A stretch of 64,000 bases of DNA from Fodinibius salipaludis (GTDB taxonomy: Bacteria > Bacteroidota > Rhodothermia > Balneolales > Balneolaceae), in contig NZ_NSKE01000008.1 of NCBI RefSeq assembly GCF_002287075.1, positions 124,001 to 188,000 on the forward strand, written 5' to 3'. The position numbers and the translations under genes were made by a program. This document shows positions 26,354 through 39,876 of the stretch, piece by piece. The notes under the pieces are model-generated. The model saw nothing but the letters and a program-made list of their open reading frames with translations, made no database searches and was not told the DNA's origin. The first letter of the stretch is position 1; each line of letters begins with the position of its first letter.

Positions 26354-26656
26354 TTAGAAAGCTGGTATAACTTCGGTACGGAAAAGGGTATCCAAAAGTG
26401 TTAGTGCCACTAACAATCCAAAGAAAGCTAATCCTGCTACCAACAGCATGGAATTAAATCGCTCATCCCAATAAAGATTCATAAAGAATAGTGCAACTAA
26501 TGTTGCCTTTAAGACAGCGATTCCCATTGCTGTGACAATATTCCAGGGAGCGGGAATTTGGATATAATATACTCCTACTGTAAGAATTGTTAGTACCAGC
26601 AATGCGGCTGCAACGCCAAGTAATGTTTTATCTGAGGATATATGATGTCCGCTCAT
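26354..26656 (-). CDS. ctaF: Cytochrome c oxidase subunit IV (CtaF-like)
   Basis: The product is 100 residues with three membrane spans: LLGVAAALLVLTILTVGVY, the middle one around IAVLKATLVALFFMNLYWDE, and LLVAGLAFFGLLVALTLL. The block KATLVALFFMNLYWD in the second span is the family signature of the small bacterial subunit IV. It has no redox centre and stabilises the oxidase. It is the last gene of the operon, 23 bp after ctaE, and is followed by the strong terminator. Confidence 0.9.
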   Translation of the reverse strand: MSGHHISSDKTLLGVAAALLVLTILTVGVYYIQIPAPWNIVTAMGIAVLKATLVALFFMNLYWDERFNSMLLVAGLAFFGLLVALTLLDTLFRTEVIPAF

Positions 26657-26679
26657 GAGCTGTAAAATATTTAGAGTTA

Positions 26680-27336
26680 TTATTCAATTAGGTAGAACAG
26701 GGGAAAGAGGAAAATCCAGATAATGTCAACGAGGTGCCAATAAAGGCCTGTGATTTCAATTGGAGTGTAGTACTCACTGTTGAAATGATTGTTAAGGGAT
26801 CTCCAAAGTAGCCATCCCATCAGGCCCATACCTACTAAAACGTGGATGCCGTGTAAGCCGGTCATCAGGTAGTATAGACTAAAAAATACATTTGCCTTCT
26901 CATGTTCAATGCCCCCGAAATCATAAAACTGGCCGGGGAAAATGCCCAGCTCAAACTTATGGGTCCATTCAAAGTATTTAATAACCATAAACACGGCGGC
27001 AAGAGCCAGCGTAATTCCCAAGTTAATGGCTATGTTCTTTTTCTGATTCAACTGTGCCGATTTGATGGCCATTGCTACCGTTAAACTACTACCAATGAGT
27101 ACCACGGTGTTAACCCCGCCCCAAAAAGTATTGAGTTCTGTAGAGGCTTGGGTAAACAGATCGGGATACCATAATCGGAATACGATATAAGCAGCAAATA
27201 GTCCGCCGAACATCAGAATTTCTGTTACCAAAAATATCCACATACCCAGTTTTGCAGTTGCAAACTGCTGGTCGGCATCCACAAAATGATGTTGAAAAAA
27301 TCGTGAATGTGTTGTGGAAGATGAATGATCTGCCAT
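26680..27336 (-). CDS. ctaE: Cytochrome c oxidase subunit III
   Basis: The product is 218 residues with five membrane spans. Family marks are the opening KLGMWIFLVTEILMFGGLF, in which the Glu within the membrane is conserved, YYLMTGLHGIHVLVG in the middle and ITGLYWHLVDIIWIFLFPLFY at the C terminus. The five-span form is usual for caa3-type oxidases, in contrast with the seven-span mitochondrial one. Subunit III supports proton uptake and stability but has no metal. It lies 35 bp after ctaD and 23 bp before ctaF. The start is ATG. Confidence 0.95.
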   Translation of the reverse strand: MADHSSSTTHSRFFQHHFVDADQQFATAKLGMWIFLVTEILMFGGLFAAYIVFRLWYPDLFTQASTELNTFWGGVNTVVLIGSSLTVAMAIKSAQLNQKKNIAINLGITLALAAVFMVIKYFEWTHKFELGIFPGQFYDFGGIEHEKANVFFSLYYLMTGLHGIHVLVGMGLMGWLLWRSLNNHFNSEYYTPIEITGLYWHLVDIIWIFLFPLFYLIE

Positions 27337-27371
27337 AATCAGTTATTAATGATTTTCAGGTTAATACGTTG

Positions 27372-29117
27372 TTACTCAGCGTTAATTTCTTTGCCATCAC
27401 TTGTTATTTCAAGATCACTTTCCTGCCCGTGTCCATCAGTAGACTCTGCTAAGCCTAACTGAAACTCTTCCATCGGTTTGTGATAATCATATGGACCGTT
27501 AATGATTACGGGGATATGATGGAAGTTGTGCAGTGGCGGAAGTGTATTTATCTGCCATTCGAGCGCACGACTCCCCCAAGGATTTGCTGTCGCTTTTTTT
27601 CCGGTAAATAGTGATTTAACCAAATAGTAGAACACCATCAGAAAGCCTAAACCGAGGATATACGATCCTATAGTTGAAACTTGGTGGAACGGTTGAAACT
27701 GTTCGATATAGTTGAAATAACGTCGAGGCATTCCTTGGGATCCCATTACAAACTGGGGAAGGAATGTGACATTAAATCCTACGAAAATAATACCACAGGC
27801 AATTTTCGCCATAATTTCATTGTACATGCGCCCGGTAATTTTAGGCCACCAGTAATGTACGCCGGCTAATAACGCCATCACCATACCACCCACCATTACA
27901 AAGTGGAAGTGTGCAACTACGTAATATGTGTCGTGTAGGTGAACATCGAGGGCGATAGAAGCAAGTACAATACCTGTCAAACCGCCTACTAAGAAGAGGA
28001 AGAAAAATCCAAAAATGTAAAGTAGCGGTGATTTTAGATCGATCGAACCTTTGTATAGGGTTGCTGTCCAGTTAAACATTTTAATGCCTGTGGGAATACC
28101 AACCAGAAAGGTCAGGAATGAAAAGACCATAGAGGCTAATGACGCCTGCCCGGAAACGAACATGTGATGTCCCCACACAAGGAAACTAATAAAGGCAATT
28201 GCCAATGATGAAAGCGCTATAGCCCAATATCCAAAGATGTGTTTGCGGCTGAAGGTAGTGATAACTTCCGAAACAACACCAAAGCCGGGAACAATCATAA
28301 TGTATACCGCCGGATGGCTGTAGAACCAGAAAAAGTGTTGAAACAGAACAGGGTCGCCGCCCATCGCCGGATCAAAAATCCCAATTCCCAAAATGCGTTC
28401 CATACCAAGAAGTGCAAGTGTGATAGCAAGCACTGGGGTTGCTAAAATCTGGATAATGCTCGTAGCATATAGACTCCAGCTGAATAGCGACAGTTTATCC
28501 CAGGTGAGGCCGGGAGCGCGCATTTTGTGGATGGTAGTAATAAAGTTTACACCTGTTAGAATAGATGAAAATCCGATTATAAAAACACCGAAAACCATGG
28601 TCGTAACTGCACCGCCTGTTGTAGAAGAGTAGGGGGTGTAGAACGTCCATCCGGTATCAATACCACCATTTAGGATTGCAAAGACAGCAACAAAAGCTCC
28701 AGTCAAATAGAGATAAAAACTTAATAAGTTAAGCCTGGGAAAAGCTACATCTTTGGCGCCCAGTTGTAGCGGCAAGATAAAATTACCAAGGGCTGCCGGT
28801 ACAGCAGGAACCAGAAAAAGGAAAACCATTATTGCACCGTGCAGCGTAAAAATCTGATTGTAAGTATTGGCTTCAATAAAGGTTTTAGCTGGTGTCCAGA
28901 GTTCAGTACGGACTAACAATGCCATTATACCACCAATGAAGAAGAAAAAGGTAACAGCACTAAGGAACATGATGCCGATCTTCTTATGATCGACCGTTGT
29001 TAACCAAGACCACAGTCCTGTTTCTTCATTTAGAAAGTGCTTATCAGGATTATCATCGGGTTTATACCGGTGAACCTGTATTTTTTTAGATGTAGAGCTT
29101 GATTCTGCTGTATCCAT
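27372..29117 (-). CDS. ctaD: Cytochrome c oxidase subunit I, A2 type
   Basis: This is the catalytic subunit, with heme a and the heme a3-CuB centre where oxygen is reduced. The product is 581 residues with 12 or more spans. The heme a His is in [15 protein letters not shown] near 93, the CuB His-Tyr pair is in [14 protein letters not shown] near 264, the CuB His-His pair is in WGHHMFVSG near 314, and the heme a and a3 ligands are in [11 protein letters not shown] near 403. The D-channel Glu of the usual GHPEVY motif is replaced: the sequence is YSHPAVY, the Tyr-Ser variant that defines A2-type oxidases such as that of Rhodothermus. It begins 1 bp after the ctaC stop. Confidence 0.97.
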
Positions 29118-29118
29118 A

Positions 29119-30069
29119 TTACTTCAATGTTTTGATGTATTCGATAATCGCATTAATCTGGTCGTCGTTAAGCTGCCCCTGGTAGGTATTCATAACATCC
29201 GGATATCCTTCAACGATTTTTGAACTTGGCTCCAGTATAGATTCACGGATGTAATTTTCATCTACGGTCACCGTGGAGCCGTCTTCAAGAGTTTGCTCAC
29301 TGCCAAATTTTCCTTGCCAGGTTGGGCCGGTCATTTGGCTGCCATCTGTAGAGTGACAAGTAGTGCAAGCGTATTCTTGAGCCAGTTGTTCGCCCCACTC
29401 TTCGGGTGCAAGATCTTCTGGTTGCGATCCTCCTCCGGAATTTTCAGCCAACCAGTCTTCAAATTCTTCCTGCTCGTGAACGATGACGTTACCAAGCATA
29501 TCGGAGTGACCGTCACCACAGTACTCTGTACAAAAAATAATAGATTCGCCGGGTTCGGGGGCATTAAACCACATCTCGGTATATCTGCCGGGAACCACAT
29601 CCTGTTTCAGGCGATAGTCTGGTACAAAAAAGGAGTGGATGACATCATTCGATTGCATAATTAGCTTGATGGGACGATCGGCCGGTATATGAAGTTCGCC
29701 CGTTGATCGAGCACCATTTTCATACTGAAACTGCCAGATCCATTTTTGTGCAGTCACATTAACTTCATAGGCGTCATCAGGTACTACTGTTTGATTCATG
29801 AATACTTGATATCCCCATCCAAAAACGATAAGAACTAATACTAAGGGGATGACCGACCAAGTAACTTCCAAAGCACTGTTATGAGTGATGAGAGGAGTTA
29901 CCTCGTCTTCAGACTTGCGACGATATTTGTAGACGAAATAAATTAAGACTGCAATGAGTCCAATAGTCAGAATAAGGCTGCTGCCGTGTACGAACCAGAA
30001 AAGGGTATCGTGTTGTTCGGCCAGCGTAGATTTTGCCGGGGGTAACAAGAAATCTCTAATCGCGTCCAT
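29119..30069 (-). CDS. ctaC: Cytochrome c oxidase subunit II with C-terminal cytochrome c domain
   Basis: Subunit II receives electrons and passes them to heme a. The product is 316 residues. Two N-terminal spans are at about 25-47 and 65-90. The cupredoxin domain has the upstream CuA His in [14 protein letters not shown] and the CuA loop [12 protein letters not shown] (C-x3-C-x3-H-x2-M). From about 220 on there is a class I cytochrome c domain with CTTCHS and a distal Met in PDVMNTY. The c domain makes this a caa3 oxidase. It is very similar to the C-terminal domain of ActE in the same operon. The start overlaps the SCO gene by 14 bp. Confidence 0.96.
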
Positions 30070-30895
30070 TCGTTTCTTTTATTTGCTTTTCATTATTAGA
30101 ATATCGATGCCGCAACCACATAAAACCGAGGAATATACCCAGAATTAACATGGTAGCAAAGCCGCCAACCTGCATGATTTTCCAGGCTACCGGTACATAT
30201 GTGTTGGAATCCGCATCGTATTGATAACAATACAGTAACACTTGTTCTGCAGCACTTCCGATGTTACCATCAGCTGCATCGTATAACGCATTCCGCAAAT
30301 TAAACTCGTCAAACTTAAGCCCGTATAGATAACGTGTTATCACGCCATCGGGACTGAGAAACATAATAGCAGCGCCGTGTGCATACTGTCCATCTTGCAA
30401 GCGCCTCTTATTAAACCCAACAGCTTCAGTGAGCTTATCAATATTTTCTTTGGTTCCGGTTAAAAAGTGCCATCCTTTTCCAGCACTTTTTCTTCCCAGC
30501 TTATTCAAAAATCGTTCTCTGTTTTCAGCAGCCAGAGCTGTTGTTTCGCTGGGATCAAAACTGAAAGTAACAATATTGTATTCTTTGCCCGGTGACCACT
30601 TTAAATCTTTAACACCTTTAAAAATGGCCTCTTTTATCATCGAGCACAGCTGCGGACACTCATAATAAACCGGATTTAACAACACCGGTTTGCCGTCAGT
30701 AAATAAATCTTTAAGCTTTATAGAATCGCCTTTAGCATTGGCGAATGTTAAATCGAGCGGAACCTGCTCGCCTAATCGCTCTTCAACACCTACATCTTCC
30801 AGTTGCTTTGGCTTTTGTTTATTCAATTGAGCCTTGGAAGCGTAGGGTAGTAAAAACAGGCTTATTACAGTTATTACAAGCCCTAAGTGTTTCAT
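30056..30895 (-). CDS. SCO1/SenC-family copper chaperone
   Basis: The family delivers copper to, or reduces, the CuA site of subunit II. The product is 279 residues with a signal peptide (LVITVISLFLLPYASKAQ), a thioredoxin-like domain with the copper-binding CPQLC near 82 and the third ligand His in YAHGAAIMFLSPDG near 173. A C-terminal membrane span at about 240-262 (MQVGGFATMLILGIFLGFMWL) is followed by a basic cytosolic tail, an arrangement common in Bacteroidetes SCO proteins but unlike the N-terminally anchored mitochondrial form. It overlaps ctaC by 14 bp, fitting a direct role in CuA assembly. Confidence 0.93.
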   Translation of the reverse strand: MKHLGLVITVISLFLLPYASKAQLNKQKPKQLEDVGVEERLGEQVPLDLTFANAKGDSIKLKDLFTDGKPVLLNPVYYECPQLCSMIKEAIFKGVKDLKWSPGKEYNIVTFSFDPSETTALAAENRERFLNKLGRKSAGKGWHFLTGTKENIDKLTEAVGFNKRRLQDGQYAHGAAIMFLSPDGVITRYLYGLKFDEFNLRNALYDAADGNIGSAAEQVLLYCYQYDADSNTYVPVAWKIMQVGGFATMLILGIFLGFMWLRHRYSNNEKQIKETNGRD

Positions 30896-30905
30896 AAACG
30901 GTTAT

Positions 30906-31460
30906 CTATTCTTCATCTGCAGCGATTTCATTAATTGCGCTGTCGATAGGTATTCTGTAAGTGCCATTTTCGAGATCAACAACACCAAAACTATCGAGTT
31001 GCTGTCGTGCTTCTTTTTTCATCTGATTAGCCTGATAGTATTCACTTTCAGATGATACGCGGTCTTGTGTTACTTCCGTGTTGTATTGATACATTTCATA
31101 AAGACCACGTACAAATATTACAACTAAAATTGTTCCAAAAACGCTCCAAAATATAAGGCGTTTATAATTCAGCTTATCTTGCATCACTCCGTGCTCAACA
31201 GAGTCAGCGAACTGCTTGTCGGAAATGTCAACATCAACATTTTCTGCCGGTTCCTCAGGGGATGATGTATCTTCGCTTTCTTTAGTCTCAAAAACATCTT
31301 CTCCACCTTTTTCCAGCTCGGTTGCCCACATTAGGATAACCGAAACAGGTACATCATACTTTTCTGATAGCCGGTCCAGGTTCTTCTTGGACTGATCTAA
31401 TGCCTTTTGTGCAACTTCTTTTTTAAACTCGGCAGAATAATTTTGCTTCTCGTTAGCCAT
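30906..31460 (-). CDS. Unknown membrane protein with N-terminal transposase-type helix-turn-helix
   Basis: The product is 184 residues. Residues 8-52 read like the HTH of IS3/IS66-type transposase OrfA proteins: YSAEFKKEVAQKALD, then LSEKYDVPVSVILMWATELEKGGED. An acidic linker (about 54-85) follows, then one membrane span at 102-119 (LIFWSVFGTILVVIFVRG) and a periplasmic tail of about 65 residues with no cysteine or heme motif. No DDE catalytic part and no inverted repeats are present, so this is not an insertion sequence. It sits between actF and SCO with small gaps (58 and 10 bp) and the same strand, inside the respiratory operon. I do not know its function; an assembly factor or a membrane-bound regulator are both possible. 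Confidence 0.75.
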   Translation of the reverse strand: MANEKQNYSAEFKKEVAQKALDQSKKNLDRLSEKYDVPVSVILMWATELEKGGEDVFETKESEDTSSPEEPAENVDVDISDKQFADSVEHGVMQDKLNYKRLIFWSVFGTILVVIFVRGLYEMYQYNTEVTQDRVSSESEYYQANQMKKEARQQLDSFGVVDLENGTYRIPIDSAINEIAADEE

Positions 31461-31518: not shown

Positions 31519-32703
31519 TTAATGTTTATTTAGTGAATCTCCTAATTTTGGATCGTTAATAGGCACCATTTTATTTTGCTTAAACTTATAGAAAAACAAT
31601 CCTAAAAAGATACCTCCGAGACCAATAAAGCTTGTAATAGTCATCCAGTTAAGATGGAATCCATGGTGATTAAGTACCGGCATAACAAGCCAGTAAAGTT
31701 CAACCAGATGTGATACTAAAATCAAGACGGCAACACTACCTACAACTTTTGGTTTGGATTTTGGTCCCTTCGGGAGTAAAATTACAAATGGAATTACAAA
31801 ACGCCCAAACAGGTAGAACCATGCAAGATATTCATATCCGCCGCTAAGCCGCTCTAAATACCAAACGGTTTCTTCGGGGATGTTAGCATAGTAAATCAAC
31901 AAGAATTGACTAAAAGCGATGTAGGCGTAAAAAACAGTAAAGCCAAACATCTGCACGCCCAAGTCATATATATGGCTTTTCTGGATGGTATTTGTAAGTA
32001 AGTTATTATTCCACAAGAAAAATATGACAAGAATAAGGACGGCAAATAATCCCTGGAAACTCATTGCAAAATAATAAACGCCAAAAATGGTGGAATACCA
32101 GTGTGGATCAAGCGACATTATCCAATCGAAAGAAGCAAATGCAAGGGTAATAGCAAAGAAAAATAATCCCGGTCCGCTGGTTCTTCGCAGTAGCGTTTGT
32201 AGTCCCCAGTCGCCGGTTTCATCCATTTCAACCGATTTAGAATAGAGTCGATATCCGAGGAAGCTCCAGAGTGCAAAGTAGATAACTTGGCGGATGATAA
32301 AGAATGTGGTATTCAAATAAGGTTCTTTACCTTGTAGAACCGGATCAGCAGCAACAGCATCAGCGTGGGTCCAGTGATAAAGAGAGTGCATTCCAAACAA
32401 GAGGGGAATAATAAATAGTCCCCAGATCCAAAAATAAGATGAGAAAGTTTCAGGAATTCTTCTCAGCACAGCACTCCATTCCGATCGGGTTAAATGTTGA
32501 ACCATTACAAAAAACAAACTTCCCAGGGCAATACTTGAGAAGAAGGAAAAACTTACAAGATAGGAGAAGAAAAACTGATCATGATCCAGAAAATATCCAA
32601 CACCGGTAGCCAGTAGGCCAACAGTCCCCACACCAAATAATGACTTGGTTATATTCAAATCAGAAGGAAAATCCAGCGTATCAGTTATTTTAGGCTTGCT
32701 CAT
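31519..32703 (-). CDS. actF: Alternative complex III subunit ActF (quinol:cytochrome c oxidoreductase)
   Basis: The product is 394 residues with about ten membrane spans. Typical ActF/ActC-like blocks are FSFFSSIALGSLFFVMVQHL near 54, WSAVLRRIPETFSSYFW near 76, DWIMSLDPHWYSTIFGVYYF near 193 and AFSQFLLIYYANIPEETVWY near 262. ActF is a paralogue of ActC (NrfD fold) and belongs to the membrane part of the complex, thought to take part in proton translocation. It follows actE by 44 bp. The order actA-B-C-D-E-F is complete and standard. The start is ATG; the length is normal. Confidence 0.93.
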   Translation of the reverse strand: MSKPKITDTLDFPSDLNITKSLFGVGTVGLLATGVGYFLDHDQFFFSYLVSFSFFSSIALGSLFFVMVQHLTRSEWSAVLRRIPETFSSYFWIWGLFIIPLLFGMHSLYHWTHADAVAADPVLQGKEPYLNTTFFIIRQVIYFALWSFLGYRLYSKSVEMDETGDWGLQTLLRRTSGPGLFFFAITLAFASFDWIMSLDPHWYSTIFGVYYFAMSFQGLFAVLILVIFFLWNNNLLTNTIQKSHIYDLGVQMFGFTVFYAYIAFSQFLLIYYANIPEETVWYLERLSGGYEYLAWFYLFGRFVIPFVILLPKGPKSKPKVVGSVAVLILVSHLVELYWLVMPVLNHHGFHLNWMTITSFIGLGGIFLGLFFYKFKQNKMVPINDPKLGDSLNKH

Positions 32704-32747: not shown

Positions 32748-33737
32748 TTATTCAGCGTTTTCACTCAGTGATTTTATATACTCAACAAGTGAATTGATTT
32801 CGCTATCACTCAGAAAGTCATATGAAACCATAGAAGGAGGATATCCTTCTACGACTTTAGCAGATGGTTCTACAATAGATTCTTTCAAATACTCTTCATT
32901 TGCGGTTGCCGTTGATCCATCATCAAATGTTCGTTCGGATCCATATAAATTTTGCCATGTAGGACCAACCAATTTGCTACCATCGGTTGAGTGGCAAGTC
33001 ATGCAACCATTATTTTGTGCAATTGTTTTACCTCGTTCAACAGAAACTTCTCCACCGTCGCCGCCTGCCTGGGCTTCTTCTTTGGCTTGTTGCGCAGCTA
33101 ATTTTTCCTGATAGTCTTCTTCAAGAGCAGCAAGATCTACATCATATTCTTGAATTTCGTCTTCAGAAACATTTTGACTTTTCTGTAGTGCTCGTACATA
33201 GGCTACAATAGCCCATCGGTCTTTAACAGGAATTTGTGTGGCATAGGATGGCATATTTCTGATGCCATTGGCAATAGCAGAATAAAGATATCCATCACTC
33301 TGGTTTCTCAAACGCTCAAGATGAAAACTTGGAGCAGGCACATATCCATAGTTATTTGCCATAATGATGCCGTTTCCATCACCGGCTATCCCGTGGCAGG
33401 GTGTACAAAATACTTCGTATTGATCTTTGCCTCGGTAAATGAATGATTTCGTAACATCAACAGGGATTTGATCTACAAAGCTGCTGTCCTCGTTAATACC
33501 CTGGTACAAGGCTTTATCTTCTTTAAGATTGTCACGGGCAATAGTTCCCTCTACCGGTTTACGCATGGCACGGTTGTCGGAAAAGAACTCATTTTTTTCT
33601 TGTGCCTCAAAACGTTTTTGTTGATCCATATTCATGTTAGGATGGACAGGCTGAGATTGAAACTTCCCGCCTCTGCATCCAGCTAAAGCCAATGGGAGGA
33701 CTAAAACAGCTAATAATAAGTACTTGGAAACTTTCAT
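32748..33737 (-). CDS. actE: Alternative complex III subunit ActE, di-heme form with extra cytochrome c domain
   Basis: I use the ATG at 33737, which starts a lipoprotein signal peptide (KVSKYLLLAVLVLPLALAGC). The longer frame to 33773 begins with TTG. The product is 329 residues. The first cytochrome c domain has FCTPCHGIAGDGNG with a methionine ligand region in GIRNMPSYATQ; this is the usual ActE. A Gln/Glu/Ala-rich linker (about 215-245 of the longer frame) leads to a second c domain with [18 protein letters not shown], close to the domain at the end of CtaC. The usual ActE carries one heme, so this is a fused form. It is anchored by its lipid on the periplasmic side. Confidence 0.92.
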   Translation of the reverse strand: MKVSKYLLLAVLVLPLALAGCRGGKFQSQPVHPNMNMDQQKRFEAQEKNEFFSDNRAMRKPVEGTIARDNLKEDKALYQGINEDSSFVDQIPVDVTKSFIYRGKDQYEVFCTPCHGIAGDGNGIIMANNYGYVPAPSFHLERLRNQSDGYLYSAIANGIRNMPSYATQIPVKDRWAIVAYVRALQKSQNVSEDEIQEYDVDLAALEEDYQEKLAAQQAKEEAQAGGDGGEVSVERGKTIAQNNGCMTCHSTDGSKLVGPTWQNLYGSERTFDDGSTATANEEYLKESIVEPSAKVVEGYPPSMVSYDFLSDSEINSLVEYIKSLSENAE

Positions 33738-33773
33738 CGGATCGTTATGCGATCTAAAGATTTTTGTGGTCAA

Positions 33774-34322
33774 TTATTCCGAATCGTATACGGTTTCAAT
33801 GTGTGTTGCTCCGTTATCCTGGAACAGCTTTTTAACTTTTTCTTCAGCAAAGAGATCATCAGAAGCTTCAATGTGAACAAAAAAGCCATCGTCCGAGGCT
33901 TTTGAGAAGCGCTCTACGTTAAACAAAGGATTATGTAAGCGTGGTAATTTATTGAGCGCAAGCATGCCAAATGTAGTGGCAAAAGCTGCCAGAAGTACGG
34001 TTAACTCAAATGTTATAGGTATATAAACTGGAAAGTTGATGAATGGCTTACCACTAATATTCATCGGGTACTCATAACCCATTACCCATATCATTAATGC
34101 TAATGCACCTATCATACCAGTTAGGGCTCCACCCAACACAATCCAGCCGAGCGGAGATTTCTTTAACCCCATAGCTTTTTCCATCCCGTGAATGGGAAAG
34201 GGAGCGTAGGTATCGAAATCCTGGTATCCGGATTTTTTAACTGAAGAAGCGGCATCAACGAGTTCTTTTGGATTCCTGAACTCGGCTAACACACCGTAAA
34301 TTTGTTTGTTTTCTGCGTCCAT
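33774..34322 (-). CDS. actD: Alternative complex III subunit ActD (DUF3341)
   Basis: The product is 182 residues. The DUF3341 pattern is seen: YGVLAEFRNPKELVDAASSV at the start, YDTYAPFPIHGMEKAMGL-type block (here FDTYAPFPIHGMEKAMGL) near 36, two membrane spans at about 60-82 and 100-125, and a C-terminal soluble domain with SDDGFFVHIEASD. ActD has no cofactor and holds the membrane part of the complex together. It lies 12 bp after actC and 36 bp before the actE ATG. Confidence 0.95.
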   Translation of the reverse strand: MDAENKQIYGVLAEFRNPKELVDAASSVKKSGYQDFDTYAPFPIHGMEKAMGLKKSPLGWIVLGGALTGMIGALALMIWVMGYEYPMNISGKPFINFPVYIPITFELTVLLAAFATTFGMLALNKLPRLHNPLFNVERFSKASDDGFFVHIEASDDLFAEEKVKKLFQDNGATHIETVYDSE

Positions 34323-34334
34323 AAATATCAGTTA

Positions 34335-35768
34335 CTAAACAGTTTGCTCTTGTTGAACAACAACAGGTTTGGTTTTCTCTATATCAAATTCGTTGGTTTC
34401 TTCATCATAGTTGTGCGGATCTGCCTGCGGCATAACACCTTTAACTTCTGCAATGGCAACCATTGGCATAAAGCGCAGGAAGAGCAGGAAGAAAGTGAAG
34501 AATAGTCCGAATGTTCCGATATAGGTGATGATATCCCAGAAGGTGGGAGAATAATAATCCCACGCAGAGGGCATAAAGTCTGTTGAGAGTGAAGCAACGG
34601 AAATCATAAAGCGTTCGAACCACATTCCGATGTTCACAATAATCGAAATAACAAAAGTGATAGCTACGTTACGTCGTATTTTCTTGAACCATAAGAATTG
34701 TGGGGTTACCACATTACAGAACATGAGGATCCAGAAGCCCCAGGCATAAGGCCCAACAACGTAGAGCCAGAAAATTCCTTGTTCATAAATATAACCACTG
34801 TACCAGGCGATAAAACCTTCCATCAGGTAAGCAAAAGCAACCAGGTTACCTGTTATCATCATTACAAGATTCATCTTTTCCATGATATCGATGTTCATAA
34901 TGTCTTCAAGACCGTAAATTTTTCGAGCGATCAACATCAGTGTCAATACCATGGCAAAACCGGAATAAATAGCACCGGCAACAAAGTAGGGCGGGAAAAT
35001 AGTACTGTGCCAGCCCGGAATAACAGAAACGGCAAAGTCAAAAGATACAATGGTGTGTACCGACAGTACCAAGGGAGTCGCAAGACCGGCCAGAATCATA
35101 TAGGCCTTTTCGTAGTTCCACCAATTTCGGAAACTGCCTGTCCAGCCGAGAGAAGCAATGCCATACGTAATTTTGGCAACCTTGCTTTTTGTTTTATCGC
35201 GTAGAGTAGCAAAATCCGGGATTAATCCAACATACCAGAAAAGTAGTGAAACGGTAAAGTATGTACTTACGGCAAAAACATCCCAAAGCAGTGGACTTGA
35301 AAAATTCGGCCAAGCTGCCATCTGGTTGGGGATAGGGAATACCCAGTAGATAACCCAGATACGTCCCACGTGTATAGCAGGGAAGATACCTGCACACATT
35401 ACGGCAAAAATAGTCATTGCCTCCGCAAAACGGTTAATAGCTGTTCGCCATCCCTGCCTAAAGAGGAAAAGGATAGCAGAAATAAGTGTTCCAGCGTGAC
35501 CAATACCAACCCACCAAACAAAGTTGATAATAGCCCAACCCCATCCGGCCGGGTTGTTAAGTCCCCAAATACCGATACCATCCCAAATGAGGTATCCTAT
35601 AGCTCCTAATAGTGTGATAAGAAGTATGTTGGCCAGGCCAAACGCTAAATACCATAATTTAGGAGTAGGAGATAAGGGAGTTTTGGCAATAAGGTCAGTT
35701 ATACTCCCAAAGGAATGATCTCCTTTTACGAGTGCTGGCTCTGGTACGTATTGATAATCTGTGCTCAT
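34335..35768 (-). CDS. actC: Alternative complex III subunit ActC (NrfD/PsrC-like quinol-binding subunit)
   Basis: The product is 477 residues with ten predicted spans. NrfD-family blocks include [21 protein letters not shown] near 75, [23 protein letters not shown] near 97, [17 protein letters not shown] near 133 and [22 protein letters not shown] near 240, with the His and Asp residues thought to lie near the quinol site. It oxidises menaquinol together with ActB and passes electrons to the iron-sulfur clusters. It lies 18 bp after actB and 12 bp before actD. The start is ATG and the length normal. Confidence 0.96.
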
Positions 35769-35786
35769 CGTAAAGTATGTTGAAAA

Positions 35787-38700
35787 TTAAGCCAATTTGG
35801 GATTGGGATTACGAACTTTAGCAAGATACGACGTTCTGGGTCGCGTATTAAGTTCTTCAAGCAGTAAGTAGTTACGATTGTTCTTCTTCGTTTTCACTAC
35901 TTCACTTTCGGGATCGGTGAGATCTCCAAAGTAGATAGCATCTGCGGGACAAGCTTGCTGACAAGCCGTCTCTACAGCTCCATCTTTAGGTTTCTTGGTT
36001 TCACCGTTTGTGTCTATGCTGCGATTGATCTTGGCGCGGTTTACACGCTGTACACAATAGGTGCATTTCTCCATCACACCGCGGAATCGCACGGTTACTT
36101 CCGGATTCATCGCCATTTGGACGATTTCCGGGTCATCTCCACCTGTTAAAAATTCTTTAGTATAATTGAAAAAGTTAAAGCGACGAACCTTGTAAGGACA
36201 GTTATTCGCACAATAACGGGTTCCAATACAGCGGTTGTAGGTCATCTGGTTCATACCGTCATCGCTGTGGGTGGTTGCCGCTACCGGGCAAACCTGTTCG
36301 CAAGGGGCCAGCTCACAGTGCATACAGGGCACAGGCTGGTGTAGGGCTTTGGGATCGTTGACATCACCATCAAAATAGCGATCATTTCTGATCCAGTGCA
36401 TCTCACGCCCTCGACTTACCTCGCGCTTACCTACTACCGGGATATTATTTTCAGCCGTACATGCAATCGTACAGACCCCACATCCGGTACAGGTGTTCAG
36501 GTCAATAGACATACCCCATTGTGGTTCGTCTTCAGGGTATTCTTGTTCATCAATAGGATTAAAAATTGAAAGCGGATCATCCTCGCCATGCTCTTCAGCA
36601 TACGCAACCCCCGGCATCTCCGCGTCATAAGCAGATTCATATGTCGAGAAGTTGGGATTCTCACGATACTCTTGAAGGGTAGCATGTCGCAGTAGCGATC
36701 GCCCTTCCATAGTATTATGATCCTGTGTAGAGGCGATCTCATATGTTTTGCCTGTCTTTTCAACTGAGACATTACTGGCAAAATGCATATTATCTGTTGT
36801 GCGAAGTGGATAGGTGTCAACACCTGTTTTATTAGCAACACGTCCAACGCCTTCTCGGCCATATCCTACCGTTATCGTGATACTGTCATCGGCATGTCCG
36901 GGTTGAACCCAGGCCGGTATCTCAAGAGTAGTGCCATCAACAGTGATAGAAATAACTTCAACTTCTGCTTTTCCAAGCCCGGCTTCTTTAACACCCAGCT
37001 CGTCGGCTGTCTTCTTGCTCATCAGAGCAACATTATCCCAAGTGATCTTCGTCATGGGCTTAGGTTGCTCTTGCAGCCAACCGTTGTTCGCAAAGCGTCC
37101 GTCAAAAACGGTTGAGTCAGGTCGGATAACCAGCTCCATACCCTCAGAAGGGTCTGCATTACTAATGAAGTCGCTGGCTTGTGAATTAAATGCACTTGAA
37201 ATACTGACTGAAGCAACAGAAAATGTTTCTTCACCTGCTAATCCATCGTGCAGTGCTTTATTCCACTGACTCGTAAAATCATTCGTGTAATAATCTTGCC
37301 ACGTATCCTGAACTATATCATAACCTTTTGTTTGTTCTCCATTCAGGATGATATTCAAAAATTCAATTTCACTGATTCCGGAATATAATGGTTCGATTTG
37401 TGGCTGGATAATAGAACGTGTTCCGGAATAGGAGTAACCGTCGCCCCATGCTTCAAGAAAATGAGCCCGGTTTAAATGCCAGTTGGCCAGTTTTGAAGTT
37501 TCATCATAATAGTTGGAGAGATGAATAACCTGTCTGGCATTGGAAAGAGCTTCTTCAAAATTCAAATCAGCCGGTGCCGTGAATGCAGGATTTGCTCCTA
37601 CAAGTACCACCGTATCTACATTATCATTGTTAAGATCTTCAGCTAAACCGGCAAAAGCTTCACGGTTGTTTTGATTATCAGCATGTGGAACTTCAAGATA
37701 ATCAACAGCTTGTCCATCGTTGCCAAGCGCAACGTTTATCGCTGCAACGGTTGCGTGAAGCTCTGGTTTGTGATCGCGTCCAACAGTTAGAATAGAATCT
37801 CCTCTGTTATCAAGTAGTTCTTCAGTGAGAACAGAGACCCATTCGTGATCAGAAAATTTGTTGCTGTAACCACTGAATGCAGATAATCCACTTACAGAAT
37901 TAGAAAGTTCAGCAGCCAGTGCATATATAAAGAGTTCAATTTCACCTGACTTAATGCGCAGGCGATTGTCAGCGTTGGAACCGGTAATACTAAATGTGCT
38001 TTCAACAGCATAAAACCGGGACATGTCGTCATCTTCAGACATTACGCGACGTCTGTCGGTAAAACGCTTGGTATTTTCAACGCTGTTTTTGTCTGCGGCC
38101 GGATTTAGGAAATCATCGTCAAAACTTACGATGACATCGGCCTCGTCATACTTATTATATGTTCGCAATCGCTCCCCGAAAGCAATATTTGTGCCTTCAA
38201 GAGCATTGTCCTCCCCAAATGGCTCGTACGTAATCCATTGAGCATTGGAGAATTGATCCATCGCCTGATCCTTCAACCTATTATAAGTAGGAGAGGAGTT
38301 TGCCTCAGAGACAAAAGCGATATTTTGATCAGTATTTGAAAAATGATCGCTGCAAAATTTTGCAAAGGCACTAACCGAAGAACGCTCTCCGTTTTTACGG
38401 ACGTAGCGCGATCGGTCAGGATCATACATGTTCAATATTTCTGCCTGACCAAAGATGCTGGTATTCCCACTACTTGCGGGATGCATCTCATTTCCTTCAA
38501 TTTTAGTGGGTCGCCCTGAATTGTTTTCGACGACAATACCAGTCACTGCATCCTGGAATGGTGATGCAGAAGCATAATACTGGGGTACGCCTTCCACCAG
38601 ATCTTCAGGTTGCTTGCTAAAGGGTACAATTTTTTGCACCGGTCGCCGACAGGCGGCAAATCCCGCAAGCGCAATGGATGCTCCCATCACACGCAAAAAG

Positions 38701-38837
38701 CTGCGTCGTGATACTTTGTCGTTAAGTTCAGTGGCGTTTTCGGGAAATTCGCGCTCAACGTACTTCTCATACTCTTCATTGCGAGCAAGTTCGCCAAGGC
38801 TTTTCCAGTAATTGGGATTTTTTACTTCTTCGCTCAT
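35787..38837 (-). CDS. actB: Alternative complex III subunit ActB (molybdopterin-oxidoreductase-like plus Fe-S domain)
   Basis: The product is 1016 residues. Residues of about 44-65 form a Tat-type signal with SRRSFLRVMGASIALAG, which is in the middle of the usual extension. The B1 part (about 70-740) has the fold of molybdopterin enzymes but, as in all ActB, no cofactor-binding motif that I can see. The B2 part has clusters in CTGCGVCTIACTAEN near 772, CMHCELAPCEQVCP near 830, CIGTRYCANNCPY near 859, CTYCVQRVN near 915 and CQQACPADAI near 948: enough Cys for three 4Fe-4S and one 3Fe-4S. It lies 51 bp after actA. Electrons go from ActC through these clusters to ActA and ActE. Confidence 0.96.
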   Translation of the reverse strand: MSEEVKNPNYWKSLGELARNEEYEKYVEREFPENATELNDKVSRRSFLRVMGASIALAGFAACRRPVQKIVPFSKQPEDLVEGVPQYYASASPFQDAVTGIVVENNSGRPTKIEGNEMHPASSGNTSIFGQAEILNMYDPDRSRYVRKNGERSSVSAFAKFCSDHFSNTDQNIAFVSEANSSPTYNRLKDQAMDQFSNAQWITYEPFGEDNALEGTNIAFGERLRTYNKYDEADVIVSFDDDFLNPAADKNSVENTKRFTDRRRVMSEDDDMSRFYAVESTFSITGSNADNRLRIKSGEIELFIYALAAELSNSVSGLSAFSGYSNKFSDHEWVSVLTEELLDNRGDSILTVGRDHKPELHATVAAINVALGNDGQAVDYLEVPHADNQNNREAFAGLAEDLNNDNVDTVVLVGANPAFTAPADLNFEEALSNARQVIHLSNYYDETSKLANWHLNRAHFLEAWGDGYSYSGTRSIIQPQIEPLYSGISEIEFLNIILNGEQTKGYDIVQDTWQDYYTNDFTSQWNKALHDGLAGEETFSVASVSISSAFNSQASDFISNADPSEGMELVIRPDSTVFDGRFANNGWLQEQPKPMTKITWDNVALMSKKTADELGVKEAGLGKAEVEVISITVDGTTLEIPAWVQPGHADDSITITVGYGREGVGRVANKTGVDTYPLRTTDNMHFASNVSVEKTGKTYEIASTQDHNTMEGRSLLRHATLQEYRENPNFSTYESAYDAEMPGVAYAEEHGEDDPLSIFNPIDEQEYPEDEPQWGMSIDLNTCTGCGVCTIACTAENNIPVVGKREVSRGREMHWIRNDRYFDGDVNDPKALHQPVPCMHCELAPCEQVCPVAATTHSDDGMNQMTYNRCIGTRYCANNCPYKVRRFNFFNYTKEFLTGGDDPEIVQMAMNPEVTVRFRGVMEKCTYCVQRVNRAKINRSIDTNGETKKPKDGAVETACQQACPADAIYFGDLTDPESEVVKTKKNNRNYLLLEELNTRPRTSYLAKVRNPNPKLA

Positions 38838-38888
38838 TCCGTTACGGTTGCGTTAATTCAGATTCGTTCGGTTAAATATTCCTTCTTA

Positions 38889-39542
38889 TTAATAATGGCA
38901 ACTTTGACAATAGGTAGGGGGAGCAATATTGTGTTTTGCTACAAGCTCACGTCCCATTTCAATCTGATCTTTTTCCGGTTTATATCCCATTGTAGTGACT
39001 TCTTCAACCGGACGAACATTTTGCTCCGGATTTCGGTGACAGTCAAGACACCAGCTCATACTTAAGGGTTCAACTTGTCGAACAACCTCCATCCGATCTA
39101 CCCGGCCATGGCAGCTTTCACAACCTACTCCTACGTTGACGTGCGCTGCGTGATTAAAGTAAGCATAGTCCGGAAGGTTATGGACGCGCACCCATTCAAT
39201 AGACTCATCAGACTCCCAGCTGTCACGAATTTTTTGTACTTCTTTGGGTTTATTTTGTCCATCAATCTGGTTGTGGCAATTCATGCAGGTTTGCGTAGCC
39301 GGCACATTCGCATGCTTTGAGTCAAAAACGTTTGTGTGGCAATATTGACAATCAATATCGAGTTTACCGGCATGCAGTTTATGGCTGTATTCGATAGGCT
39401 GCTCGGGGGCATAGCCTACATCGGTATATTCTGGAGAAAAGTAATACCAAACTCCTGCTACTGTTGCTGTCGCGAAAATTATGAGCCCGAGCAAAATACG
39501 TTGGGGTACTTCATTTGCCCATCGGGGAAAAATCTGAGCCAT
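38889..39542 (-). CDS. actA: Alternative complex III subunit ActA, pentaheme cytochrome c
   Basis: The product is 217 residues. One N-terminal membrane span (about 14-35, ILLGLIIFATATVAGVWYY) anchors a periplasmic domain with five CxxCH heme sites: CQYCH, CMNCH, CESCH, CLDCH and CQSCH, the last at the very C terminus. This is the full number for ActA. Extra His (KLHAG, HNLPDYAYFNHAAHVN) provide the other axial ligands. It is the first gene of a twelve-gene minus-strand operon that runs to the terminator at 26296-26328. The 334 bp upstream separates it from the divergent DUF420 gene. The start is ATG. Confidence 0.96.
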   Translation of the reverse strand: MAQIFPRWANEVPQRILLGLIIFATATVAGVWYYFSPEYTDVGYAPEQPIEYSHKLHAGKLDIDCQYCHTNVFDSKHANVPATQTCMNCHNQIDGQNKPKEVQKIRDSWESDESIEWVRVHNLPDYAYFNHAAHVNVGVGCESCHGRVDRMEVVRQVEPLSMSWCLDCHRNPEQNVRPVEEVTTMGYKPEKDQIEMGRELVAKHNIAPPTYCQSCHY

Positions 39543-39876
39543 GGGTTAAGTAATTTTTGTCGTTACTTTAAGCAATTGTCCTCTAAAAGTTTTCGGCATG
39601 AAAGTATGGAAAATCCAACTCTTTTAGAACCCATAAAAATGAGCTTTATCATATTTAAATCGAATCTAAATAGAATAGGGTCACTCTTTCATCCCGAAAA
39701 TTAAGAGCGTTAAAATATAATCTATTTTTTAAAAATGTCTAATTGAATTCAGGAAATCCCGTAAATTGTATCTGTAATCTTGGCAGGTATTCAAACCGGA
39801 AATGAACCTGTAGAAAAAATGAATATTATGTATCTTCAGTCTACTTAAAATTGTGTGCGTTAATACCAGCTAGTTT
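39543..39876. other. 334-bp divergent promoter region between actA and the DUF420 gene
   Basis: It is AT-rich and should hold promoters in both directions, one of them driving the whole respiratory operon. I see no exact TAnnTTTG/TTTG pair on either strand, no clear operator palindrome and no ORF that looks real. Confidence 0.5.

Follow-up and report, generated by a model that had tools for sequence, protein, structure and literature searches.

The gene at 30906..31460 on the minus strand of the window (the 64,000-nucleotide stretch of the Fodinibius salipaludis genome analysed here) is actG, known as number seven in the gene cluster for the bacterial respiratory complex alternative complex III (ACIII), and encodes a lineage-specific domain variant of a known subunit. 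We consider it likely that the 184-residue product is a bitopic accessory subunit of ACIII, and that a helix-turn-helix domain (HTH) fused to it in the ancestor of the Balneolaceae acts as a cytoplasmic protein-docking or stabilising module that does not read DNA. The protein would dock on ACIII through its single membrane helix and its short tail, perhaps at the border with the caa3 oxidase, and the tail, predicted to be periplasmic, carries the motif GVVD-x-E-x-G-x-Y-R-I-P-I-D-x-A-I. In the Balneolaceae ancestor, a transposase-type HTH would have been joined to the cytoplasmic end via an acidic flexible linker; no longer a DNA reader, it would now serve at the cytoplasmic face as a small module for docking or stabilisation that is useful yet dispensable. 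We infer that ActG is a member of the physical ACIII complex in Fodinibius, and that the function of its HTH is to bind a protein docking partner.

Gene order and the identity of the anchor and tail

The gene is an intact ORF, assigned by synteny and core homology, and reading the same interval on the plus strand meets several stops. It is flanked by actF (31519..32703; phmmer match to 6f0k_F, E = 1.5e-105) and by a gene for an SCO1/SenC copper chaperone (30056..30895; PF02630), in an operon that begins upstream with actE, actD, actC, actB and actA (32748..39542; Pfam and homology) and continues downstream with the caa3 oxidase genes coxII, coxI, coxIII and coxIV (26354..30069), all on the minus strand. 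The original prediction held that the gene is kept between actF and SCO, and the neighbourhoods of its relatives bear this out. ActF lies directly before and SCO or CoxII directly after actG in 91 of 103 distinct loci, far beyond chance, and most of the exceptions lie at contig ends or have over-extended starts. Under the gap limits applied, the gene directly follows actF in the window and in 97 of the 103 loci. The median gaps are 24 bases on the actF side and 14.5 bases on the SCO/coxII side. Nor is the gene missing from relatives, as homologues are found in 56 of 58 of them and in 203 of the 244 genomes of the class Rhodothermia. The slot between actF and SCO/coxII is kept throughout this class, the type strain of Rhodothermus marinus included, as well as in another Bacteroidota family and in Neomarinimicrobiota, and a homologue in Zixiibacteriota is located after actF. 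At two loci (L052 and L053) there is no SCO and coxII directly follows actG.

The acidic linker and single membrane span that had been predicted are both present. The linker (residues 53-91; 31188..31304) evolves fast, with pN/pS of 0.51 across 12 congeneric genomes, and has low pLDDT at residues 64-79. The transmembrane helix covers approximately residues 102-120 by hydropathy (31101..31157), and a single hydrophobic segment is found in 110 of 111 homologues. In the AlphaFold2 model, built on a 58-sequence alignment, a helix at 99-155 passes through the membrane and is followed by a C-terminal beta hairpin and helix, which form the conserved tail (residues 155-182; 30915..30998; LDSFGVVDLENGTYRIPIDSAINEIAAD) with invariant Y168, P171, D173 and I176. 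The window protein has no cysteines and no redox-cofactor motif. Since it lacks a signal peptide, and since lysine and arginine are in slight excess before the membrane helix (1.58 before vs 1.16 after), we infer an N-in orientation; an N-in/C-out topology is likely, if weakly supported. The C-terminal tail of the original prediction is confirmed, and its periplasmic side is predicted.

Outside the Balneolaceae, the match to the window protein starts at approximately residue 38-90 and covers the membrane helix and tail, leaving out the HTH. A profile of the tail (A2) found a single meaningful relative in the PDB, 8k9e_G, the ActG of Chloroflexus ACIII, at E = 0.0008 (7.6e-4), and a wider alignment (A4) returned the same chain at E = 0.003 (3.2e-3); the similarity is confined to approximately 38 residues of the tail (LNSYG..(E)G..IPIDRAM), with modest E-values. 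As a single sequence, the window protein did not match 8k9e_G and gave only chance matches to designed PPR proteins in the PDB, no Pfam or NCBIfam model covers the ActG core, and Foldseek with the whole model returned nothing at E ≤ 0.001. Weak Pfam matches, DUF7358 among them, fall on the membrane helix and were ignored.

In R. marinus, the seventh act gene has been named ActG, with one predicted transmembrane helix, and ActG peptides were found in the purified complex by peptide mass fingerprinting while no cryo-EM density was seen (PMC5928083). The R. marinus genome in our set has exactly one 130-aa, one-helix gene between actF and SCO, which we assign as actG on gene order, not on a locus tag. 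One paper holds that Chloroflexus ActG is without a counterpart in R. marinus (PMC9316378). Because the tail is common to both, the sequences argue that the two ActG proteins are counterparts and that R. marinus does have one. Since its membrane anchor and tail are those of ActG, which is encoded in the R. marinus cluster, was detected in the preparation from that species (PMC5928083) and is chain 8k9e_G of the solved Chloroflexus ACIII, the window protein is also a component already known, and not the undescribed one for which it had been taken. Our literature search found no paper on ACIII in Balneolaeota.

ActG might instead be an assembly factor that aids the insertion of ACIII and caa3, or their coupling (copper, haem), together with SCO and then leaves. 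Its place almost always directly before SCO and the presence of peptides without density in R. marinus (PMC5928083) would fit such a transient role, but ActG was detected in the purified R. marinus complex in that same work and is a named chain in four solved Chloroflexus ACIII entries, and we regard this alternative as unlikely. An assembly or structural role is nonetheless the earlier idea that comes closest to the resident accessory subunit that we prefer.

The neighbouring actE (32748-33773) encodes a second cytochrome c domain (approximately residues 246-336), which shares 57% identity with the one in the caa3 CoxII (29119-30069; E = 8e-35). ActE is long at Balneolaceae loci (about 326-387 aa) vs about 200-250 aa in most other families, and by these comparisons a cytochrome domain has apparently been copied between ACIII and caa3. 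A possible connection of the HTH to the long two-domain form of ActE was rejected, since ActE is long in the examined Balneolaceae genomes whether the HTH is there or not.

The transposase-type N-terminus and its distribution

Residues 8-52 (31305..31439) form a domain of the HTH_Tnp_1 type, as the original prediction had proposed, and profiles, AlphaFold2 and structure alignment all point to it. PF01527 matched the window protein over residues 4-62 at E = 0.0086 and 16.7 bits, short of the curated cut-off (24.1 bits), and an orthologue (G012) at 27.3 bits, above it; 18 of 30 relatives in the family alignment were matched, with a best E of 2e-7. A profile of the family N-terminus in turn gave genuine transposases encoded in Balneolales genomes scores as high as 31 bits. 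The region also folds as expected in prediction, AlphaFold2 giving three helices (10-22, 25-35 and 39-52) with pLDDT of about 91-95. Alignment of residues 1-65 with VIA-align found IstA (Z 5.4), TnpE (2rn7, Z 5.0) and Cgl2762 (2jn6, Z 4.9); because these values are modest, a Z of 5-6 being the range of common helical arrangements, the evidence for the fold is that of sequence and model. The catalytic DDE part of the IS3/IS66 type is absent, both adjacent and fused, and the direct neighbours are actF and SCO/coxII. The idea of a domesticated transposase HTH on a membrane anchor is supported: the fusion is a fixed part of the ACIII-caa3 operon, and the clade has conserved it.

The HTH is present in 71 of the 83 Balneolaceae genomes in which the N-terminus could be gauged and is clearly missing in the other 12 (two further matches in the family were partial only and lie outside the 83), and it was found on ActG in no genome outside the Balneolaceae. 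On a FastTree phylogeny of ActF, ActC and CoxII (102 loci, 1185 columns, without branch support), Fitch parsimony required five changes of HTH state. The natural reading of these sequences is that the HTH was gained once at the base of the Balneolaceae and then lost about four to six times. Two HTH-less proteins, that of Gracilimonas amylolytica (L079) and that at L082, retain the first dozen residues (e.g. MASEEPTYSSESKAKE), which, read from sequence, are in-frame deletion scars.

Other lineages have either an FN3/Ig-like sandwich of approximately 100 residues at the ActG N-terminus (alignment A5) or nothing. The best PDB match of the FN3-like domain is titin (E = 0.004), and Pfam fn3 matches at E = 0.04. 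Because an HTH, an FN3-like domain or nothing occupies the same end, the cytoplasmic end of ActG can be viewed as a plug-in site. The FN3/Ig-like domain of approximately 100 aa lies ahead of the membrane helix at Rhodothermales loci L052-L059, L065 and L066, and a cytoplasmic site would be unusual for it.

Selection and DNA-binding potential of the HTH

Among four close species, dN/dS was 0.056 in the HTH and 0.24 in the linker, with the membrane helix and tail at about 0.08, and by these estimates purifying selection on the HTH is strong. The absence of the HTH, with deletion scars, from 12 of the 83 gauged genomes might suggest that a transposase once inserted into actG and that the HTH is what is left of it, neutral and in decay. 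The selection test contradicts this, however, as the HTH value of about 0.06 is below that of the linker and not above that of the membrane helix; the fold-determining core residues K13, A17, A20 and W45 are kept across the family, and the HTH is intact in 71 genomes. We see almost no chance that it is neutral debris.

The part of the HTH that would read DNA has a different character. The mean net charge of the recognition helix, taken over 13 residues around the conserved helix-3 tryptophan, is -1.70 in 44 distinct ActG sequences vs +1.75 in 12 transposases of the same order (P = 2e-7, which is indicative only, the sequences being related and not independent). Helix 3 is also the most variable segment of the HTH, with a mean entropy of 2.24 vs 1.55 for helix 1. 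These features favour a surface for protein contact over one that reads DNA. The loss of basic residues argues against DNA binding, and regulation by that route is unlikely.

Upstream of actA, no operator specific to HTH-bearing genomes was found. The sole conserved palindrome-like block there, CTATTTAGAWTCGATTTAAATAT, occurs in genomes that lack the HTH as well. This near-palindrome (window positions ~39640-39690, before the act operon) was seen in 17 genomes, some of which have the HTH on ActG and some of which do not, and is probably a promoter element or an operator for a different regulator. A related 21-mer, TATTTAGAATNATTCTAAATA, has seven genome sites at ≤3 mismatches vs none for the reversed control, and the act site is not among them.

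These data bear on the proposal that the protein is a membrane-tethered transcription regulator, in which the tail would act as a sensor, of the periplasm or of the state of ACIII, and the HTH would control the respiratory operon through DNA binding. Its order of HTH, membrane helix and periplasmic tail is that of CadC and ToxR (PMC5430869), and its HTH is homologous to the DNA-binding HTHs of transposases and strongly conserved by selection. Against this, the recognition helix is acidic rather than basic and is the least conserved HTH segment in the family, the predicted structure has no winged domain, and the tail is a structural ActG motif common to HTH-less homologues. Several deletions have removed the HTH while the gene and operon persist, and the upstream near-palindrome is equally present without it. 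Because of the acidic, variable helix, the repeated deletion and the HTH-independent upstream site, the regulator anticipated by the original prediction is disfavoured, and we now judge it quite improbable. A mixed case, in which the Balneolaceae ActG also signals, its ACIII-held HTH binding DNA or a transcription factor, appears very improbable; if true, gene expression would respond directly to how the respiratory chain is running. The docking or stabilising module on an accessory subunit is the reading that we prefer.

Wider meaning and comparison with known systems

ActG is the least understood ACIII subunit: the structure from R. marinus shows no density for it, and no function has been assigned to it. 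In Rhodothermia and beyond, the analysis ties the 'hypothetical' gene that separates actF from SCO to this subunit, for which the tail motif GVVD-x-E-x-G-x-Y-R-I-P-I-D-x-A is diagnostic. What is new is the N-terminal fusion, and with it the view of the cytoplasmic end of ActG as a slot that takes unrelated domains, a transposase-type HTH or an FN3-like sandwich. The former is a clear example of how a respiratory complex has recruited a domain from a transposase, probably to bind protein, and this is testable because natural HTH-less relatives exist in the same family.

The ActG proteins of R. marinus and Chloroflexus aurantiacus (8k9e chain G) resemble the window protein in their slot after actF, the single membrane helix, the lack of haem or Fe-S motifs and the LNSYG..(E)G..IPIDRAM tail. 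At 130 and 112 aa, respectively, they are too short for an N-terminal folded domain, whereas the window protein has a 52-residue HTH and an acidic linker fused in front. CadC and ToxR share with it the order of HTH, membrane helix and periplasmic part, and their HTH is winged and binds DNA (PMC5430869). The HTH of ActG is instead non-winged and acidic, the model showing no wing strands within residues 1-60, with no match of the window protein to the Pfam model Trans_reg_C. With the PF01527 domains of IS3 OrfA and IS66 TnpA type (2jn6, 2rn7), it has in common the profile, the three-helix fold and the helix-3 tryptophan, and it differs from them in having no DDE partner gene, an acidic recognition helix and a fused membrane anchor. 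RodZ serves cell shape, not respiration, and its HTH is of the Cro/CI type, another HTH family than that of ActG. Like the window protein, RodZ is a membrane protein with a cytoplasmic N-terminal HTH, and this HTH contacts protein, being needed for the binding of MreB (PMC3599482). Because its recognition helix is acidic and variable across the family, the HTH of ActG is probably a protein-docking module, as in RodZ.
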